From Morinoia aosen (lineage: Eukaryota > Arthropoda > Malacostraca > Amphipoda > Talitridae), in NCBI GenBank assembly GCA_030386875.1, contig CM059578.1, positions 27,079,009-27,143,008 on the forward strand: a stretch of DNA of 64,000 nucleotides, read 5' to 3'. Below, piece by piece: positions 40,716 to 63,937 of this stretch. Both the position numbers and the translations under genes were made by a program. The notes under the pieces were generated by a model, which saw only the letters and a program-made list of their open reading frames with translations, did no database searches and was not told where the DNA came from. The stretch's first letter is position 1. The number at the start of each line of letters is the position of its first letter.

Positions 40716-41667
40716 TCCTTCGCGATGTTTTCATCAGGGCTTTGTGCATGGCACTTTGGTAGGTTGGGTTTGCCTGCTATTTTATTTTATATTTTTTTCT
40801 GTGGGCAATGCATGTCGAATGCAAGTCAAAAGCATGCCGTTACCTGCTGGGATTTCCGGAAGTAACGGCTGCTTAGGGATGCAGGACTAGAATATTTTTA
40901 AACAGTTTTCAAAAATCTATTCCCAATGTGTGTGGATAAACTACAGTACATAACAAACTCATAGCAAGTTGAGATGAAATATTTGGCTTTCTTCAAGTTT
41001 AATTCCTGATTCAAAATTTGAAAAAAGTGGTTTAAACATATATTTTTTATGTCACTCATCTAATGCACGCCGGCATGGAAAAGGACGAATTTTTCCACAA
41101 TCCCTGATCAGGCGTTGCTGGTTGCATTGTATCAGCTTAATAACTGTTACGAAAAATTATTTTTACCATTAATTAGGGGGTTATTATATCTAGGCCTCAA
41201 CTCTTTGCTGCACCAATTAAAATTGGGAACGAAAAACTTTTCCTCTGAAAAGTGCACTAATATGTAGCTTGAAACATAGAGCCAAGTACTTCCATTAATA
41301 AGTGAGATTTCTGTTAACAAAAGGGATAATCGCATCACACAAAAATGACAAGAAGGTATACAGTATTTTGCAAGTTTTTTGTAATTTAGTTTGTTCTATA
41401 TCTAGCACTTGGTGCCAAAAAGAGTCAAGATCAACTCCTGTTTGCTGGGCGCAGCTGTAGAACCGGTCGTCCTCTTGGTTCCCCTCCACTGTTCTCTGTT
41501 CAATCCCATGCTGAAAAACAGTAACGTTCCTGTTTCCGTGAACCATTTTAAAATCCTTGCAGTCACCCCTCACATGAATGATTTTCGCACCCTTCATCGT
41601 TAAGCTCAGAACCCTCTAAATTATACTCAAAAGTACTTTTCAACTCCTGTTCTTACAGAGTGTCGGA
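40716..41667. other. DNA upstream of ALKBH7
   Basis: No repeat family or coding segment was recognised. A good 3' splice site (CCTGTTCTTACAG, ending 41,658) lies 9 bases before the ALKBH7 ATG, so a non-coding first exon and the promoter probably lie further upstream in this stretch. Confidence 0.5.
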
Positions 41668-44600
41668 ATGCTGCGGCGATGTCTCGCCCAACTACAACGT
41701 TGGGATATTCTAGTTAAATACCCTCCAGCAGCCGCTTCAAGCTGTCATGACATCTCCTTGTTCAATAAATGCAACAGGTATTTTCATAAGTCATTCACTC
41801 AAGCTCATCACACGAGACTTGAGATCCCCTTAAGTAATTCAGATTCTTCCTGTGTAAATTACCCAGCAAGCAAGGCGTTCATTAGTCGAGCATATTGCCA
41901 TCATGCCGAAAAAGAAAATTCAACTCCCAGTGCAACAACTTCCTCAAAGAAATATGATGCCTCGTCTGATGCGGGAGGCTATGCATCACCCGCAGAAATG
42001 ACATCAAGTCACACGAACTTCACCTTCACCGCCACCTGTACCCAAGAAACCAAAGAAGAAATTTTGTCCAGTTTTTCCTTGCATGTGGACTTCGTAACGC
42101 CGGCAGAAGAAGCGCAGCTCATCAAAGAGGCGGACCGACACTTGCAGCGCCTGAGGTACCAGTTCAGCCACTGGGACGACGTGAGTCTTTTGCATTTTTT
42201 GGCCTTTAAAACGTTGCTCGCGATATGACTCATCGATGGGTCGTGGCAGTCGAGTGGCGCAGCCAGCCAAAAATTTTGGTAGGGGGAAGCCAGGATCTCG
42301 GGCAAATAATTTCGGGCGTGCTTAGAGCACCTCGCTCCTGTGCATTTCTTGCATTGATTTGCGGCAGGACTTTCAACACGTTACTTGCGGTATGACCGAT
42401 CGATGCGTCGTGCTTAAGTTCTTCTAGCTACGAAACGACACAACGATGGGTCATTTGAAAATTTTTAACAATCTCTTAAAATTTGTGGTATTTAAAGGAC
42501 CCAGTTAATGTTTGGTATTTATGAAATTTCTGAGAACTTTCGACTTTAAAATGTGATGTTGATGTTCATTTATTGATAGGAAATTTAATTAAGAGTAAGG
42601 GGGATGGTTTTTGTGCTTATGTTAGAAACTTGGCAGTCTCTAGGTCAGATACCTGAGGTTCACAAAGTTACGTACACTGTGACTAACCTTGTTCAAAAAC
42701 AAAGACTTGTGTGTCTCACACGTCTTAGCTGCCCATCACAGGAATAGTTACGGTAGAAGCCGAGATGGAATGAGTTTTAACATTCGGTAAGCTTCAACCT
42801 TCGTTATTTTCTTTTCTTTTGAGACCCCCAGCATGTCAGAAAACGACGTTGCTGTGTCCAGCATTGCGTCCTTTCACTTCTGCATTCATTTTCTCCACAC
42901 TTGAGTGCTCCTGCAGTTGTCGACACACTTCTTATGTAACTGCGGTAGTTGAAATCAATGTTACCACATTGACTCCGATGGCTTATACTGAAGTTCAGTA
43001 GTCAACTTAAATTCAAGAAAGAAAGAAAAGAAAAACATTTTATTTCCAATGAAGGACAAACATGAAATGTCGATACATTGGTTTTTAAAACACCTTAACA
43101 TTAACATCCTTAACTGATTATATCACATTGGTATCGTAATACCCGTGTAGAATGTTGCAACAAAATGATTGACAGAAAAGCACAACAAAATGAATGAGTT
43201 CCTTTCCTTGCCTAATCTGATTTTGAACTTACAGAACACAGTTTCCTTATCTACAAGAGACAACGAGAATTTCAATTAGAGTTGTTAAGAATTCCCTGAA
43301 GACACAGCGGTAGCTGGGTCCATTAAATGCCATTAATACAGGATTGTTAAAACTTCTTCAAATGATCCCCCGGTGAGTCGTATTGCAGTCAACGTGTTGA
43401 TTTATTTTGAAGCGTTCATGGTTCATCAGTCTGGTTGATATTTTATTAGTGATGTACCGATACCATTTTTTTGGCCGATACCGATACCCATATTTTTTGC
43501 CGATACCGATACTCCGATACTTGAAAATACCGATACTTTGACCGATACTACTACCGATACCGATACTTTTACAATCATCTAACCTAATAATACGTATTTC
43601 GTTGTATGTTTGTTTAGGTAGTTGTTTGGTGTCCGCTTCTTAAGAAACATAAGATGACTGAGTTTGCGGTATCATGGATACCGAATTCCTCAGTGTAAGT
43701 AACATTGAAAGATCGTCTGTACATGCATTGATATGTTTGAAATTTTATCAGGATAGGTTAGTAGTATTGGATAGGTTGTTGTGATCGCCGTAATTTGCCC
43801 ATTTTTCCTAACCATGTCGCTTTTGTGCAGCTTTCAGGCCATATTGAATAATTAAAAGACATTGAATTAAATATGGTAATTTTGAGAAGAGCTGTGCCCG
43901 AAGTAATCGTTTTTGAGTAATGGTGATTTGTCACTGGAAGGGAACTCTGAGCCAAGAGAGCTTTGTGTGTTCTTGTACATATGTGCTCGGCATTAACATT
44001 TTAAACCTACCCGACTTTCCGTTCTACGTATTGACAACAGCTAGTGGACAACGCATTAGTGGTGTAGGGCCTACAAGAACCGCAGTTGCTACCATGTAAT
44101 GACGATCACTAGGCCTTCGCGTCGCGAACGTGCTCTGTGGCAGTGCGAGTTACGACATAGAATTAGGATAGCATAGGTTAGATAATGTTGACGGAATTTT
44201 TCCATGGGTCCATCTAGCTTAACGATGACACTGTCCTTGGCATTTCCATGGGTCATGCTGCTACCTAATAATACCCTTGTCCTTGGTTTATTTGTTTGGT
44301 GTCTGTTTCTTTCATTTCTGTCACGCTCATAAGGATAGTTGTAATGACCGTATCTGTGATACGAGTTTCACCAGTGCGCAAAAACAAGAATATTTTTCAT
44401 CACGGGTCGGGTACTGTTAGGATGAATATACTGTTTTGTTTGTCATCTACATCTTGAAAATTCATTCATGAAAGGTATTGAATCCCACCTTTGGCGGGCC
44501 GTGCACATTTGTATTAAAATAAAACCATTATAAGCCCTACATGGGGGTTATAATAAAATTATTTGCTAATATAGCTAATAATATAAAAATATTTACAATA

Positions 44601-47600: not shown

Positions 47601-50600
47601 TTTACGTTTCTAACCTCACCCAACCTGCATTCACACACAGTCACAGTTTTATCTTATTTTGTATGCTTGGTAGTGTTGTATACCATGTGTCCACTTTTAT
47701 GATCGTCTCATAGAAGACACAATATAACACAATACCGAGTCCTGCTACTGCGTGTGGGTGGGTACCTCGTTTCACGAGGTCAGACTTGCCAATCTCACGC
47801 GGAGGTGAAATGAGCTCCAACTACTCAGCACCACCCTCTTTCACGTATGCTAAGCATGCATTCAACTGTATTCCTGCAGTGTTTGTTTTTCGTTCGGTGA
47901 ATGGGTTTTACTACAAACTAAAGGGTTTGTTCAATTTTTGAGTAGAATTTGGGAACGATTAGTCTCAAACTGGCTTGCTGGCTAACCGAAAATTTAGACT
48001 TCTGAGAAAAATTTGGGAACGATCAGTCCGAAAACTTTTGGTCTACGAGGCTAGGATGTGTGCAATTCTGACTGTGAGGCTTAACATGTGTCCTCGTGTT
48101 TCCGTATCTACGAGAGACAACGAGAATTTCTATTAGAAGTTCATTCAAGCATTCTTTAACCAATGGAGTACTCGGGTCAGCCGTGTTGACCACTAACACT
48201 ACACACAATGTCTGCGATTAGTTCATTTCATTCAGTAAAACTGTGTTTTTTTGTAGATGTTGCAATTATTGTGAGTAGACGACTTCATACGGGTGAAAGT
48301 AACACTAGAGTCCTGGGCAGACGACTTCAAACAAGGGAAAGAAAAAAAAGAAAAACAATTTATTTCCAATAAAGATGGTACAAGAAGCTCATCATTGGTT
48401 TCTAAAATATCTTACAGTAAGAGAGAGTAATACCAGTATACCGGGCAGGCGATAGAAGGCTACCGAGAGACGGAAGTATCGCGTTGGTCACCGGGCAGCA
48501 GTGACGTGCTGGAGCGGCTACGCGCCCGTGCCTTCAGAGGCGCGCGTAGCGTGCTCGTGCACACCCACGTGCTCGACCTGGCGCCTGAAGGGTACATCAA
48601 ACCGCACGTCGACAGCGTCAGGGTGAGTCGCGTCTCCTAGTAGATGGTGCTGGATTCTTGGTAGTCACTTGACTGGTGGTGAGGGTTAGTTACCCCACAT
48701 CAAACCGCACGTCGACTGCGTCAGCGTGAATCGCGTCTGCAGGTGGATGGTGCAGGATTTTTGCCAGTCACTTGACTGGTGGTGAGGGTTAGTCACCGCA
48801 CGTCGACAGCGTCAGGGTACGTCGATATATAAGGATTTGTGACAGTCACTTACTGAGCGTTAGTTACCCTACATCAAACCGATCGTCAACAACGTCAGGG
48901 GGAGTTGCGTATCCTAGTGGAAAGAAACAAAAACCAATAGTTCAGGATTTTTGCCCGTCTTTTGTAAGTTACCTATCCACGTGGATAGTTTAGGATTGTT
49001 GATCGTCACTGGACTAGTGGTGAGGGTTAGTTACCCTACACATGAATAGTGCGTTCCAAACAAACAATGAGTTAAGTACCCACCTGGATCGTGCATGTGA
49101 AGAAAAAGGTTAATTTCCACATTGATAGAGCGTGCAAAGGATATTGCAAGTTTTCATGACTATGTATGAGAATATTGTAAACTACCACGCAGGTAGCTAT
49201 GACGAAGATCATGCCACCATGTCACGCGGATACTGCTAGGGTGAACCAATTGAAATGATTCCTACGGTGCGTCAGTTAAGATTGGTCGTTCGTGGAAAAA
49301 TTCTCATCTATATTGATGCGCGACACATCACGTACATCACGACACAGTAGACTCAATTATTTGATAAATTATCGACAATTATTATTGTTTGTTCATGCTC
49401 GTTAATGTCCAACACCATGTTACTTATCGCTGGCTGATTTTTTTATTTGGCGAACTTATTTCCAACAATGTCTCTGTTCTGAAATCTCAGCAATAAGTGT
49501 GTCGCAGAGGCCGAGCGGCTAAGAACGCACCCATCACGGGAAGGTAGTAGTTCAAATCCCGGCAGTACCGCCCAGTGTTTCTCCCCGTTGGGAAATAAGA
49601 GAACCCAGCCACAATTGCCCACTCTACCCAAGTGTTCTCCCACTTGGGAAATGAGAGAACCCAGCCACAATTCCCCACTCTACCCAGGTGTCAGAGAATG
49701 TGGGTGCCGGCTTTACCGGAGGTAACCGTCATTGCGTCCTGGTGTTTGTTATAAGGCATTTGAAAAACCTACGTAAACGATGATATTATGTATCAGGCTT
49801 TTGATTAGAATAAAACATCCTTTACCACCAACTGACAAAGAAACGTTTGTGTGAGCAGTTCTGCGGGTCGACCATAGCAGGAATCTCGCTGGGTAGCGCA
49901 GCGGTGATGCGGCTCATGAAGCAAGACCAGCTCGACCAGAGCGTGGATGTGCTTCTGCCTTCGCGCTCCCTTTACGTGATGAGGTGGGTGGGGTGTAGAG
50001 GATTCTCACCGACAGCAATTCGTGGCACAGACGCATTTTAAGGTTCGATTATAGAGGCACTTTTCAAGGCTCAATCAGCTAATCATGAATGCACCCGAGT
50101 GCTTCTTAGATGTGTGAAGTTAGTGCTTTTTAATGACAGTTACTTATGTGATGGGCGCATTTCCACGCTCAACGGCAGCTAATGGATGATGTATGCACCC
50201 GAGTGCCTCTCGACTGCAGATCCTTGAGAGCGGGGTGCACTTACCTAACCTAATAATACCCGTTGTGTGTTTATTTATGTATGTTTGGTGTCCGCTTCTT
50301 CAGAAACATGGGATGTCTGGGTTTGCGGTATCATGGAAACCAAATTCCTCGGTATAACATGAAAAGATGGTTTTTACATGCATTGATAGGTTTGAATTGT
50401 ATCAGGATGTGTTCGTTTAGGATAGGTTTGGTTAGATTAGGATAGGATAGGCTAGCATAGGTTAGGTAATATTGGCGGAATATTTACACGGGTCCACCTA
50501 GGAATTTCCACGGGTCCTGCTACTACCTAACAACACCCATGGTTTGTTTGTTTTGAGTCCGCTACTTCCATTTCTCTGTCATGCGTGTGAAGATAGCTTT

Positions 50601-52443
50601 AATGACCGTATCTGTGATACGGTCATAAGTGCAATAATATTTTTTATCACGGGTACTGACAGATATTTTTGATAACCATCCACGTCTGGAAAGTTTGTTC
50701 GAGAAAGGTATTGAATCCCGTCATTTTTGGCGAGCCGTGCACACTAGTAGGAAATAAATGGTTAGTAACCAGCAATTCGTTAGAGATGATTGCCTTAGTA
50801 TCAATGCTACCTTACAACTAAAGGGATCAAGTTATAGACTCAAGAGAACCTTATGTTGTATAATTATTTTTATACAGCTCTTAAAACTCAATGATGAAGA
50901 ATTTAGGTCGTAAATATGAATTACATGAAAATTGACTCACCACCTCTTTTTGTGATAAAGCAAATAACTTTGTTACTATGCGTATTTTTGAGTACAATTT
51001 GCCCTAATTTTATGGAAGCATGCATGATGCTGAAAGTTTAAAGAACGCATTTCAAGTTTCCTATGCAGAAAATAATTCAATTTTGATGTATTTTTGCAGG
51101 GTTATTCAGGTTCTTCGTGGTTACTGAGCTTTCAAATGTGTTCAGCTGTTGTGCTAAATATTTGAAACTTGAGAATGAATTGCGTTTGAAAATGAATGCA
51201 TCGGTAAAAATGGTTTCTCAATTCGTAGTGGACTGAAGGGTGCATTACGCATCAAAGAAATGTGCTTGAAAGCCTCCATAAAATATTAGAGAATCACATG
51301 CAAAATGAATATATATATTTTTCTTACCAGTTGTGCACTAGAAGAAATTTTATCCAGGATGTCCATGAAAATTGTATCGATTTCTTTTAAAACTTCAGTG
51401 CAAAAAAATATTTAACTTTGATCTACTTTCAAGGTCTCAATCTGTCAAAATATAGCTTAATAACCATCGCAGAATAATATTGCATCATACACACTTAAAA
51501 TCAGTGATTGAATAAATTGTTTGCAGATCCTACATATTATTTTATTCCAGATCCCTCGGATGAAATATGCGATCTAATATTTTCTAGAACTTCACTAAGT
51601 TAACTAGCCCTCGCGTCAATTGTAAAGCGGAACTTTTCACACTTCCATTCACTTTTAACATCATGTGATTACTAGGCATACTTTCAGCACTTGATTTCCA
51701 GAGCACGATAAGTGGGCTCTATAAAAAATTAATGACGCAAATTTCATGGTTCCTCACACGGTAGAAGAAACATTGTAGGGTCAAACTAGTTTTTTCTGCG
51801 TCGATCATATGGCAATCCAGACCTCATGGCAACGAGCCAATAGCAGCGTTCAGATAGCACCTGACAACACTCCTAGCCCCAAATATGGCACAACTATGGG
51901 CCCAACATGTCGTAATGGTGACGTCATAAAGTTTGTTTGGAATAAAGCCGCTCTATTGGCTAGCTGAACAAGAAAAGTAGTATTTTCTCGTATAGAAATT
52001 AATCTTATAAGGCAGGTATCAAAAAATAAAAATCACCAGGCATAAAAAAATCACGTGGTAAGGAGGGACTGGAATTAGAAAATCAATTCGTGACGTAAAT
52101 TTCCTCTATATCTTCCTACCCTCAGCGACGCGTCGCGGTACCTGATTTCCAAAACATGATACGAAGAAGCTGGTATTAAAAATTCAATTAACGATGTGAA
52201 TTTGATCTCTGTCCTTATTGCGGTACCTGGTTTCCAGAGCACGATACGAGGGAGTTGGTATGAAAATATTAATTCACTACGTAAATTTGATCTGTCTCCA
52301 TCCTCAGCGATGCGTCGCGGTACCTGTACACCCACGAAGTGCTGCGAGAGGCGCAGTTCCGAGGCGAAGTTATCACCAAAGGCCGCCGTGTGTCCATCAT
52401 CTGCAGGAATCATCCGCCGGCTGCCAAGCAACCCGCCACCTGA
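41668..52443 (+). CDS. ALKBH7: ALKBH7, mitochondrial Fe(II)/2-oxoglutarate dioxygenase, four exons
   Basis: Coding exons are 41668-42180, 48449-48622, 49859-49983 and 52308-52443. They join to 315 residues, all junctions GT...AG. Residues 149-190 (TPAEEAQLIKEADRHL to HWDDAIEGYRETE) match the start of the ALKBH7 domain. Iron ligands are His224 and Asp226 in YIKPHVDSV and His280 in YLYTHEV. The 2-oxoglutarate-binding arginines are Arg298 and Arg304 in GRRVSIICR. In animals ALKBH7 acts in the mitochondrial matrix and is linked to programmed necrosis, fatty-acid metabolism and mitochondrial RNA demethylation. The human protein has 221 residues; this one has about 100 more at the N terminus, starting MLRRCLAQLQRW, which looks like an import presequence, then a Ser/Thr-rich linker. 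The frame is open across exon 1, but the first start could be further in. Introns hold SINEs, a foldback hAT element and copies of its own splice junctions. It converges with MYCBP. Confidence 0.95.
42181..42960. other. ALKBH7 intron 1, first part
   Basis: Just after the donor (GTGAGTC), two decayed copies of a unit of about 165 bp contain ACGTTGCTCGCGATATGAC or ACGTTACTTGCGGTATGAC and TCATCGATGGGTCGTG or its relative. Positions 42,430-42,560 resemble a decayed family P2 MITE in reverse orientation. Confidence 0.55.
42961..43400. mobile_element. Family P2 MITE carrying an inserted family B copy
   Basis: Left end TTACCACATTGACTCCGATG and right end GCAGTCAACGTGTTGA match P2 ends, though the flanking TTAA is mutated. 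At 440 bp it is about 211 bp longer than the intact 229-bp P2 copies. The excess is the family-B retroposon at 43,014-43,235. Confidence 0.75.
43014..43235 (-). mobile_element. Interspersed family B copy nested in a MITE
   Basis: Purine-rich start, CATTTTATTTCCAATGAAGG, ACATTGGTTTTTAAAACACC, GGTATCGTAATACCCGTGTA and GAGTTCCTTTCCTTGCCTAA then TCTGATTTTGAAC. It is the longest family-B copy with clear limits. Confidence 0.78.
43447..47302. mobile_element. 3.86-kb foldback hAT-type element (ALKBH7 intron 1)
   Basis: Ends TAGTGATGTACCGATACC and its inverted relative CGATACATCGGTACATCACTA without its first base. It is flanked by a perfect 8-bp duplication TATTTTAT (43,439-43,446 and 47,303-47,310), as hAT elements make. 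Next to each end are clusters of CCGATACCGATA. The left outer arm (to about 44,530) is matched in inverted order by about 46,600-47,200, including CGTATCTGTGATACGAGTTT. The centre is a second palindrome, 44,925-46,097, with arms of about 580 bases around 45,540. No transposase frame was found, so it moved with help from elsewhere. It accounts for over half of ALKBH7 intron 1. Confidence 0.9.
47311..48339. other. ALKBH7 intron 1, last part
   Basis: No coding segment or known repeat was identified. A short direct repeat near 47,936-48,025 repeats AATTTGGGAACGAT and TCAGTC-type strings. A second run, CGTATCTACGAGAGACAACGAGAATTTC without its first bases (near 48,105), also occurs near 43,252. Confidence 0.5.
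48340..48425 (-). mobile_element. Family B tail copy just before ALKBH7 exon 2
   Basis: Purine-rich run, ACAATTTATTTCCAATAAAG, CAAGAAGCTCATCATTGG and TTTCTAAAATATCTTACAG. It ends about 25 bases before the exon 2 acceptor at 48,449, so it supplies the region where the branch point and pyrimidine tract should be. Confidence 0.72.
48593..49047 (+). repeat. Tandem copies of the ALKBH7 exon 2-intron 2 junction
   Basis: The last 30 bases of exon 2 and the first part of intron 2 are repeated downstream. Exon-derived parts lie at 48,593-48,622 (real), 48,697-48,725, about 48,799-48,816 and 48,870-48,899; a fifth copy (48,963-49,047) has only the intron-derived part. The intron part carries CAGTCACTTGACTGGTGGTG and GAGGGTTAGTTACC. 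Copy 2 still reads IKPHVD, copy 3 keeps HVD, and copy 4 has lost both ligands (PIVNN). Donor-like GTGAAT and GTACGT follow copies 2 and 3. Confidence 0.93.
49048..49496. other. ALKBH7 intron 2 remainder
   Basis: No repeat family or coding segment was recognised. Confidence 0.5.
49497..49812 (+). mobile_element. tRNA-derived SINE, family A, copy 5, before ALKBH7 exon 3
   Basis: The head has GCAGAGGCCGAGCGGCTAAG (A box) and GTAGTTCAAATCCCGGCAG (B box). The body contains an internal direct duplication of about 65 bp (AGAGAACCCAGCCACAATT occurs twice). The core CGTCATTGCGTCCTGGTGTT and tail AGAATAAAACATCC follow. It ends 46 bases before the exon 3 acceptor. Confidence 0.9.
49984..51684. other. 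ALKBH7 intron 3, first part
   Basis: Positions 50,040-50,235 hold two units of about 115 bp with ATGCACCCGAGTGC. Positions 50,235-50,760 are a partial plus-orientation relative of the left arm of the foldback element (TTTGGTGTCCGCTTCTT, TTTGCGGTATCATGGA, GACCGTATCTGTGATACG, GTATTGAATCCC). They end GAGCCGTGCACA as the arm does near 44,505. The rest is AT-rich and featureless. Confidence 0.65.
51685..52326 (+). repeat. Tandem copies of the ALKBH7 intron 3-exon 4 junction
   Basis: The real junction (CCTCAG then CGATGCGTCGCGGTACCTG, exon start 52,308) is preceded by a near copy whose exon-like part starts at 52,126 (CCTCAG then CGACGCGTCGCGGTACCTG), a more decayed one near 52,213-52,230 (TTGCGGTACCTG), and an older one near 51,690 (ACTTGATTTCCAGAGCACGA). 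Units are about 85-97 bp and include GGTTTCCAGAGCACGATACG and AATTCACTACGTAAATTT. The MITE at 51,757-52,005 interrupts the array. Confidence 0.9.
51757..52005. mobile_element. MITE with CRE-like core, copy 2
   Basis: Left end CACACGGTAGAAGAAACATT matches the element at 15,514. The interior shares AGCCAATAGCAGCGTT, AATGGTGACGTCATAAAGTT and TCTATTGGCTAGCTGAAC. The right end is decayed. Confidence 0.75.
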
Positions 52444-62619: not shown

Positions 62620-63937
62620 TCATGTTTACCGTTTACTGAACTTGAACTTGAAATTGCGGGCCGACAGCCTCGGGGCCTTTGTAACGGCCTACAATTCCCT
62701 CCACAATTTTCACACAAAGAGTTCAGCACCTAGTACCAGACTTATCCAACAAACTACTCAGGATCTACCAATCCTTGTCACAAGCTAAAGCTGCCATTGG
62801 ACAGCATCACTGGGATAACCAGTATGTCAAAACACCATCCCCAGGCATATTGGGTCATTACTGACCATTCTACCTGACTGGCTCATTCCAGTCACTGTCT
62901 CTTACTCCAGGCATGCACAAGAAACATTTTTATAGCTTCAATGATACTCAAATTACACTCCTGATCCAATCCAGCAAGACAGCTCATAACACAATCATTT
63001 TCAGCATATCTGGCAAACCACACATTCTCTCCACACTGCTCAAGCACCACATTCATAAAACTTTCTCTCTCTTGCTCATACTTACTACATTCCAGCACAA
63101 AATGCTCAATTGTTTCCTCCACTCCACTAATACATTGCCAAAATAATCTGTTATTATTCTCATTCCACCTCCATATACGTCTGTTCACACTCAATGACTT
63201 ACACCTTGCAGCAAACAAGAGTTGACTTCCAAAACTACCATCATAGAACATCTCAAACTTAAGTAAGGTGCTTCCTTTTTCATATACCAATTAAGTGTAT
63301 GCTTCCGCATCATGCTAAGCTTCCACTTATTCAATCAATACTCTTTTGTTTGCCTCTCAATCTCTTTCTTCCACCTCTTGCAGTCCCACTCAGGCCCTAC
63401 ACCTCCAGCATTTATTAAACTCCAGTCATCCACAGGTCTCCCAATTCTAACATGAATAATCTTTTGCATACTGAGCTTCCTTGCATGCCCCCAACATACT
63501 TTCTCCCAATAGCTCACACTCAGATTCCATTCAAAGATTCGCCTTTCCCACCTGCTATTCTGCATTCTTTCAATTCTCACCTTATAATTCAGCACAGCTT
63601 TCATCATTCTTTCTGAAAATAGGCTCCACCCTAGGTCACCTCTAATGGCTTCTGTAGCTGTCCATTTTGGAGCACCCAATGTTACACGTCCTACCTTATT
63701 TTGTATCACATCCAGCTTTTCAAGATCACTTCCATTCCAAGCAAGAGCACTCATACCATACATGACACTAGGTACAGCAACATACTTCCACATTCCTCTC
63801 ACACATTCGTATTTGTTTGCTCTGTATCTGGCCACACTACCTAACCGTCCACTCCATTGCATTGTTTTTGCCACTTTCTCACCTTTAGTTCTAGTACATC
63901 CATCTTCACTTATCATACAACCTAGATATTTGCATTA
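62620..63937 (-). pseudogene. LINE (non-LTR retrotransposon) 3' part, 5'-truncated
   Basis: The minus strand starts KYLGCMISEDG (near 63,935), the YLG segment that follows the LINE reverse-transcriptase core. It continues with VPSVMYGMSALAW, DVIQNKVGRVTLGAPKW and EAIRGDLGWSLFSERM (near 63,590-63,780), as in the thumb region of LINE ORF2 proteins. One stop near 63,334 and one frame change near 63,270-63,290 follow. After these comes a Cys/His segment ending CISGVEETIEHFVLEC (near 63,080-63,130), the usual C-terminal zinc-knuckle-like motif. The catalytic core is absent: an in-frame stop and unrelated sequence lie just upstream, as expected of 5' truncation. The 3' UTR seems to run to about 62,620, where repeats of TTCAAG occur. 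Confidence 0.82.

Follow-up and report, generated by a model that had tools for sequence, protein, structure and literature searches.

A short tandem array that carries the exon 2 donor of ALKBH7 into intron 2

The ALKBH7 locus and the layout of the array

In silico analysis of the window, by which we mean the whole stretch of 64,000 nucleotides and to whose first base all plain coordinates refer, places four exons of an ALKBH7 gene on the forward strand:

41668 to 42180, forward strand: coding part of ALKBH7 exon 1, placed by a tblastn search with ALKBH7 proteins from the database (best E 2.7e-12), the open reading frame 41620-42228 and the donor score
48449 to 48622, forward strand: ALKBH7 exon 2, phase 0, ending ...IKPHVDSVR and carrying the HxD motif (HVD)
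49859 to 49983, forward strand: ALKBH7 exon 3
52308 to 52443, forward strand: ALKBH7 exon 4, reading DASRYLYTHEVLRE...QPAT stop, located with the help of database relatives

The first exon ends in ...FSHWDD/GTGAGT (the slash marks the splice site throughout), and its start codon is a presumed one. Exons 2 and 3, when joined, encode 100 residues, all of which are covered by the match to human ALKBH7 (4qkd, E 1.8e-27); the alignment takes in the segment GYIKPHVDS with the HxD, which in AlkB-type dioxygenases is the iron-binding motif. The match across this motif confirms the gene identity given in the original prediction. Database relatives number 76, many of them bearing the name ALKBH7. Exon 2 still ends in IKPHVDSVR, a sequence shared by 8 of 11 relatives that were retrieved. 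A retro-copy or pseudogene was rejected: in the 1.99-Gb assembly of 29 contigs the exon 2-3 protein query matches the ALKBH7 locus only, at its two exons, and a 541-base region finds a single genome match, itself, in a search that passes over very frequent words and simple repeats.

The end of exon 2 and the start of intron 2 form the first unit of a tandem array, composed of the following copies:

48594 to 48696, forward strand: copy 1, the terminal 29 bases of exon 2 (48594-48622), the true donor GT at 48623 and an intron part
48697 to 48794, forward strand: copy 2, with a weak donor-like GT at 48726 (AGC/GTGAAT)
48795 to 48870, forward strand: copy 3, without the first 7 bases, with a donor-like GT of ordinary strength at 48817 (AGG/GTACGT)
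48871 to 48974, forward strand: copy 4, in which the HxD bases and the GT are gone, with extra sequence within the intron part
48975 to 49038, forward strand: copy 5, intron part only

The repeat unit consists of 29 exon 2 bases, the donor and about 74 intron bases, and the array spans 48594-49038. Tandem Repeats Finder reports its first part (48594-48801, period 103, 2.0 copies, 87% match), and local alignment stretches it to five degraded copies, as far as 49038. Aligned to the downstream intron, the 29-base exon tail scores 51, against a maximum of 25 in 1000 dinucleotide shuffles (z 18.5), and the whole unit scores 142, against a maximum of 31 in as many shuffles. The four junction copies and the fifth, intron-only copy that had been proposed are therefore present, far above the shuffle scores. 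The duplicated segment holds exon as well as intron bases beside the splice site, with 29 exon bases (22 in copy 3) in each of copies 2 to 4. As minisatellites are defined in the available part of a Daphnia tandem-repeat survey, the unit measures 10 to about 100 bp (PMC3152781); the present units are arranged head-to-tail, and at 103 bases they lie at the upper edge of that range. All extra copies lie within intron 2, and the protein alignments imply no additional coding exon.

No pair of inverted repeats was found in 48300-49400, and the 64-kb window contains no Rfam family at gathering score and no tRNA gene according to ARAGORN. Elsewhere in intron 2, at 49499-49720, a putative tRNA-derived SINE head (GCAGAGGCCGAGCGGCTAA...) stands beside a 56-base tandem repeat; neither ARAGORN nor Rfam gives a match. 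On the minus strand of the window, at 62892-63934, there are open frames whose translation gives the impression of the end of a retroelement reverse transcriptase.

Divergence of the copies and strength of their donors

The exon part is identical to that of copy 1 at 27/29 positions in copy 2, 22/22 in copy 3 and 25/29 in copy 4, and the intron part at 59/69, 35/54, 37/60 and 49/62 positions in copies 2, 3, 4 and 5, respectively. The claim that identity falls with distance does not hold as a steady trend: the exon part of copy 3 is closer to copy 1 than that of copy 2, and the intron part of copy 5 closer than that of copy 3. The claim that the copies include the bases encoding the HxD motif applies to copies 1 to 3 (CAC-GTC-GAC) and fails for copy 4, which reads ATC-GTC-AAC and has GG where the donor GT would be.

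Singleton changes in the exon part are confined to the copies (none in copy 1, two in copy 2 and four in copy 4), and divergence between copies 1 and 2 is about half as high in the exon part (2/29) as in the intron part (10/69). Over these few sites, the pattern fits drift of the copies, with the true exon alone being constrained. Pairwise, the copies differ by 0-21% in the exon part and by 14-38% in the intron part, and they carry private indels. These differences also bear on whether a single junction was simply assembled several times. Assembly errors often arise at tandem repeats, but stitching of one junction would yield near-identical copies, so that an artefact of this kind is extremely improbable.

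Donors were scored with a weight matrix built on 45 donors of the same genome. This reference set excludes 12 named rows (mostly for in-frame stops) together with weak or distant calls, and it leans to the consensus because an approximate weight matrix was used to choose it. The score of the true donor is 10.2. The donor-like sites of copies 2 and 3 lie at +103 and +194 from it, neither distance being a multiple of three, as the original prediction stated, although the two are far from equal: copy 2 scores 2.2, under all 45 reference donors, whereas copy 3 reaches 8.0, the 58th percentile of the set. Copy 4 has no GT. The junction copies therefore offer one spare donor of ordinary strength and not two. 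Beyond the true donor the frame continues as GTG AGT CGC GTC TCC TAG, which agrees with the predicted stop within six codons; as this TAG is reached at codon 6, use of a copy would indeed truncate the protein.

The copied donors, mainly that of copy 3, could act as an alternative 5' splice site, giving rise to NMD-targeted or truncated ALKBH7 transcripts and tuning expression. The copy 3 donor ranks second of the 103 GTs counted from the true donor onward, and its use would lead to the stop six codons beyond the true donor. Moreover, the exact exon tail of copy 3 combined with a donor of ordinary strength exceeds what pure decay requires, and this counts against a neutral reading. On the other hand, the true donor is stronger, copy 2 scores under every reference donor, copy 4 lacks a GT, and seven other intron GTs score 7.5-7.9, so that the copy 3 donor stands out little; the divergence pattern, too, fits drift. 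We therefore regard regulated use of the copies as very unlikely, and the first, strongest donor is presumably the one that stays in use.

Six of these seven other GTs are situated inside the intron units of the array. Three intron units each carry two extra donor-like sites, GTG/GTGAGG (48679, 48782 and 49020) and AGG/GTTAGT (48685, 48788 and 49026); the array therefore multiplies cryptic donors besides the exon junction.

Repeat background and exon ends elsewhere in the genome

The original prediction regarded growth of a repeat out of an exon boundary as unusual. A loose first pass over the four ALKBH7 exons flagged exons 2 and 4 and left exons 1 and 3 unflagged; at exon 4, it is the acceptor edge that is copied:

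52063 to 52144, forward strand: duplicate of the acceptor edge at the intron 3/exon 4 boundary, with an acceptor-like CAG before 52126

This copy lies 182 bases upstream of the real edge and includes 19 exon bases; if its acceptor were used, the reading would be SDASRYLISKT followed by a stop. In the region 52063-52326, the exon 4 acceptor copy adjoins an array with a period of 85 bases (Tandem Repeats Finder, 52135-52293).

For the repeat background, a 200-kb sample was composed of 20 stretches of 10 kb, taken at 12.0 Mb from every one of contigs C1-C20. Tandem arrays with a period of at least 20 make up 11.9% of the window and 13.1% of the sample, much of the latter being due to two stretches (98.7% and 55.9%), with the other 18 averaging about 6%; arrays with a period of at least 50 cover 7.0% and 4.0%, respectively.

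The myosin-head exons of the same genome served as a control. From 77 matches, 68 were analysed with about 600 bases per side, after exclusion of six repeated exons of muscle-myosin type on contig C1 (profile 376-452) and of C12:91997330, C17:37527647 and C12:91848686. With calls that used an approximate weight matrix, the donor was callable at 53 of the 68 exons and the acceptor at 28. A site was counted as straddled when a tandem duplication had at least 12 bases on each side of it. The control is small, being limited to these 53 donors and 28 acceptors of one gene family.

A looser first pass had found a self-match crossing the edge of the profile match in 6 of the 68 exons. Two of these loose matches, C8:61644142 and C1:35653708, are doubtful, as the profile match seems to overrun the real splice site, and a third, C11:27516376, matches inside the exon. 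C1:35653708 is still within the count given below because the counting rule was automatic, and C2:45546905 was kept despite in-frame stops at its 5' end because its donor end reads YLLEKSRVVFQ.

Under the stricter test, 4/53 myosin donors lie inside a tandem duplication (95% interval 3-18%), or 3/52 without one doubtful row with an in-frame stop (2-18% spanning both counts). Among random positions of the 200-kb sample submitted to the same test, the figures are 52/380, or 28/342 without two satellite-like stretches. For 4/53, Fisher's test gives P = 1.0 against 28/342 and P = 0.28 against 52/380; for 3/52 the values are P = 0.78 and P = 0.12. Near the control donors, straddling affects 5-9/53 at intron positions +40 to +200, 3-5/52 at +250 to +500 (where the 600-base flank shortens matches) and, within the exon, 2/53 at -10, 1/53 at -20 and 0/53 at -40 to -80. 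Among the 28 called acceptors, straddling occurs in no case at the site itself, in 0-1 on the exon side and, within the intron, in 1-4 at +10 to +500. At an uncalled acceptor, C11:27526911, an array reaches the site with few exon bases, as judged by eye. The small myosin control (53 donors, 28 acceptors) therefore reveals no excess of duplications at exon edges. With donors straddled at this rate, and with the acceptor of ALKBH7 exon 4 likewise copied, the description of the exon 2 array as unusual is not supported. In this repeat-rich genome, exon ends seem to be copied roughly as often as random positions, so that the array looks like harmless repeat growth and not like a special device.

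Three myosin exons illustrate the form that such arrays may take. At C9:53913532-53913660 a second exon tail with its donor (AGG/GTGAGA) lies 90 bases downstream, and at C2:45546905-45547126 a long array starts at the exon end, its units measuring roughly 60 bases and carrying CAG/GTCAAT or GAG/GTCAAT. At C11:27529910-27530092 (minus strand, locus L052) a myosin-head exon ending in YFYLNQ is followed by an array of 42-base units, each of them mostly a copy of the exon tail with the donor GTTAGT. Eleven donors (six CAG/GTTAGT, four CAA/GTTAGT and one CAT/GTTAGT) occur from 0 to +450, each at a distance divisible by three, and read-through stays open for four units (donors +42, +84, +126 and +168) before a TAA in the fifth.

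A duplication process aimed at splice junctions in this genome, driven for instance by transcription- or RNA-linked DNA damage, would account for the edge copies at ALKBH7 exons 2 and 4, at three myosin donors and, by eye, at one myosin acceptor, as well as for the myosin exon with 11 donor copies. The control speaks otherwise: straddling at donors is not above that at random or nearby intron positions, and none of the called acceptors is affected. A modest excess would still be compatible with a sample of this size, given the width of the interval for 4/53; targeting as such appears highly improbable.

Proposed origin and comparison with known systems

The array is most probably a short minisatellite that arose through repeated tandem duplication of a segment of about 103 bases across the exon 2/intron 2 boundary and that is nearly neutral. 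The extra copies sit downstream of an intact exon end and donor, so that the coding sequence and the first donor are untouched, and duplication would therefore be close to neutral. A tetranucleotide recurs at the limits of the array:

48870 to 48873, forward strand: TACA at the junction of copies 3 and 4, also present at the left end (48593-48596) and the right end (49037-49040), a 4-base microhomology

The first duplication would have joined two TACA tetranucleotides, that of the exon at 48593-48596 and that of the right end at 49037-49040. The junction predicted from such joining, CCC-TACA-TCAAACC, is found between copies 3 and 4. This is weakly consistent with an origin by slippage, because four bases can match by chance. 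Slippage or unequal exchange would then have added further copies, which, presumably without function, would have decayed through substitutions and indels.

As a single locus the ALKBH7 array matters little, being ordinary in this repeat-rich genome as far as the small control tells. A fair share of exon ends in this genome may carry spare donors. Duplicated splice sites have been used in classical laboratory work; if the share of 3/52 to 4/53 holds genome-wide, such exon ends would be the natural counterparts of those constructs and would steadily provide spare splice sites, so that one could trace in real genes how identical donors compete and how alternative sites are born. It is conceivable, though rather unlikely, that the tandem repeats of this genome regularly carry working donors into introns, leaving two to eleven identical or near-identical donors in competition at each such exon end, and that at some genes, best of all the myosin exon of contig C11 with its 42-base in-frame units, several are used, so that repeat number sets protein length or the productive share of mRNA. 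The myosin array on contig C11 is a better test case than ALKBH7.

A literature search found no report of the ALKBH7 exon 2 array, which is not proof that none exists. To judge from the title, a 2007 PNAS paper by Zhuo et al. reportedly treats tandem arrays as the origin of alternatively spliced introns. The terms splice, exon boundary, intron-exon and exon-intron are absent from the main text of the survey of tandem repeats in Daphnia (PMC3152781). Intronic minisatellites are described, in the available parts of the respective papers, for the metallothionein genes of earthworms (PMC12783039) and for introns of the GH and MSTN-2 genes of sea bream (PMC3045353). The sea bream case resembles ALKBH7 in its intronic repeat blocks (150 bp in MSTN-2), which its authors suggest may be explained by duplication of the minisatellite type; it differs in that the part of that paper at hand states no exon edge to be included in the repeats (PMC3045353).

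Closer parallels come from work on intron gain, as far as the accessible portions of these sources go. The Rogers model proposes that introns are gained through tandem duplication of exon segments containing AGGT, with cases in ATP2A1 and fission yeast (PMC4974935), and duplication of proto-splice sites is described for introns of Drosophila (PMC2891723), where NMD has also been proposed to shelter new introns whose splicing is weak (PMC2809761). As in ALKBH7, splice-site sequence is multiplied in these cases, the yeast one being formed by multi-copy 24-bp repeats (PMC4974935). However, the duplications behind intron gain are exonic and create introns, whereas the ALKBH7 array takes an already existing donor outward into an intron.

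The same article, in its accessible part, reports a tandem duplication across an intron-exon boundary with new splicing in the RdRp gene of potato (PMC4974935). There, as in ALKBH7, the duplication spans the edge of intron and exon and the splice signals are copied, the potato copies differing at ten nucleotides. In potato, the acceptor side is duplicated and a new intron has been created, as 106 RNA-seq reads support (PMC4974935); in contrast, the ALKBH7 copies are of the donor side, lie in an intron that already exists and do not imply a new one.
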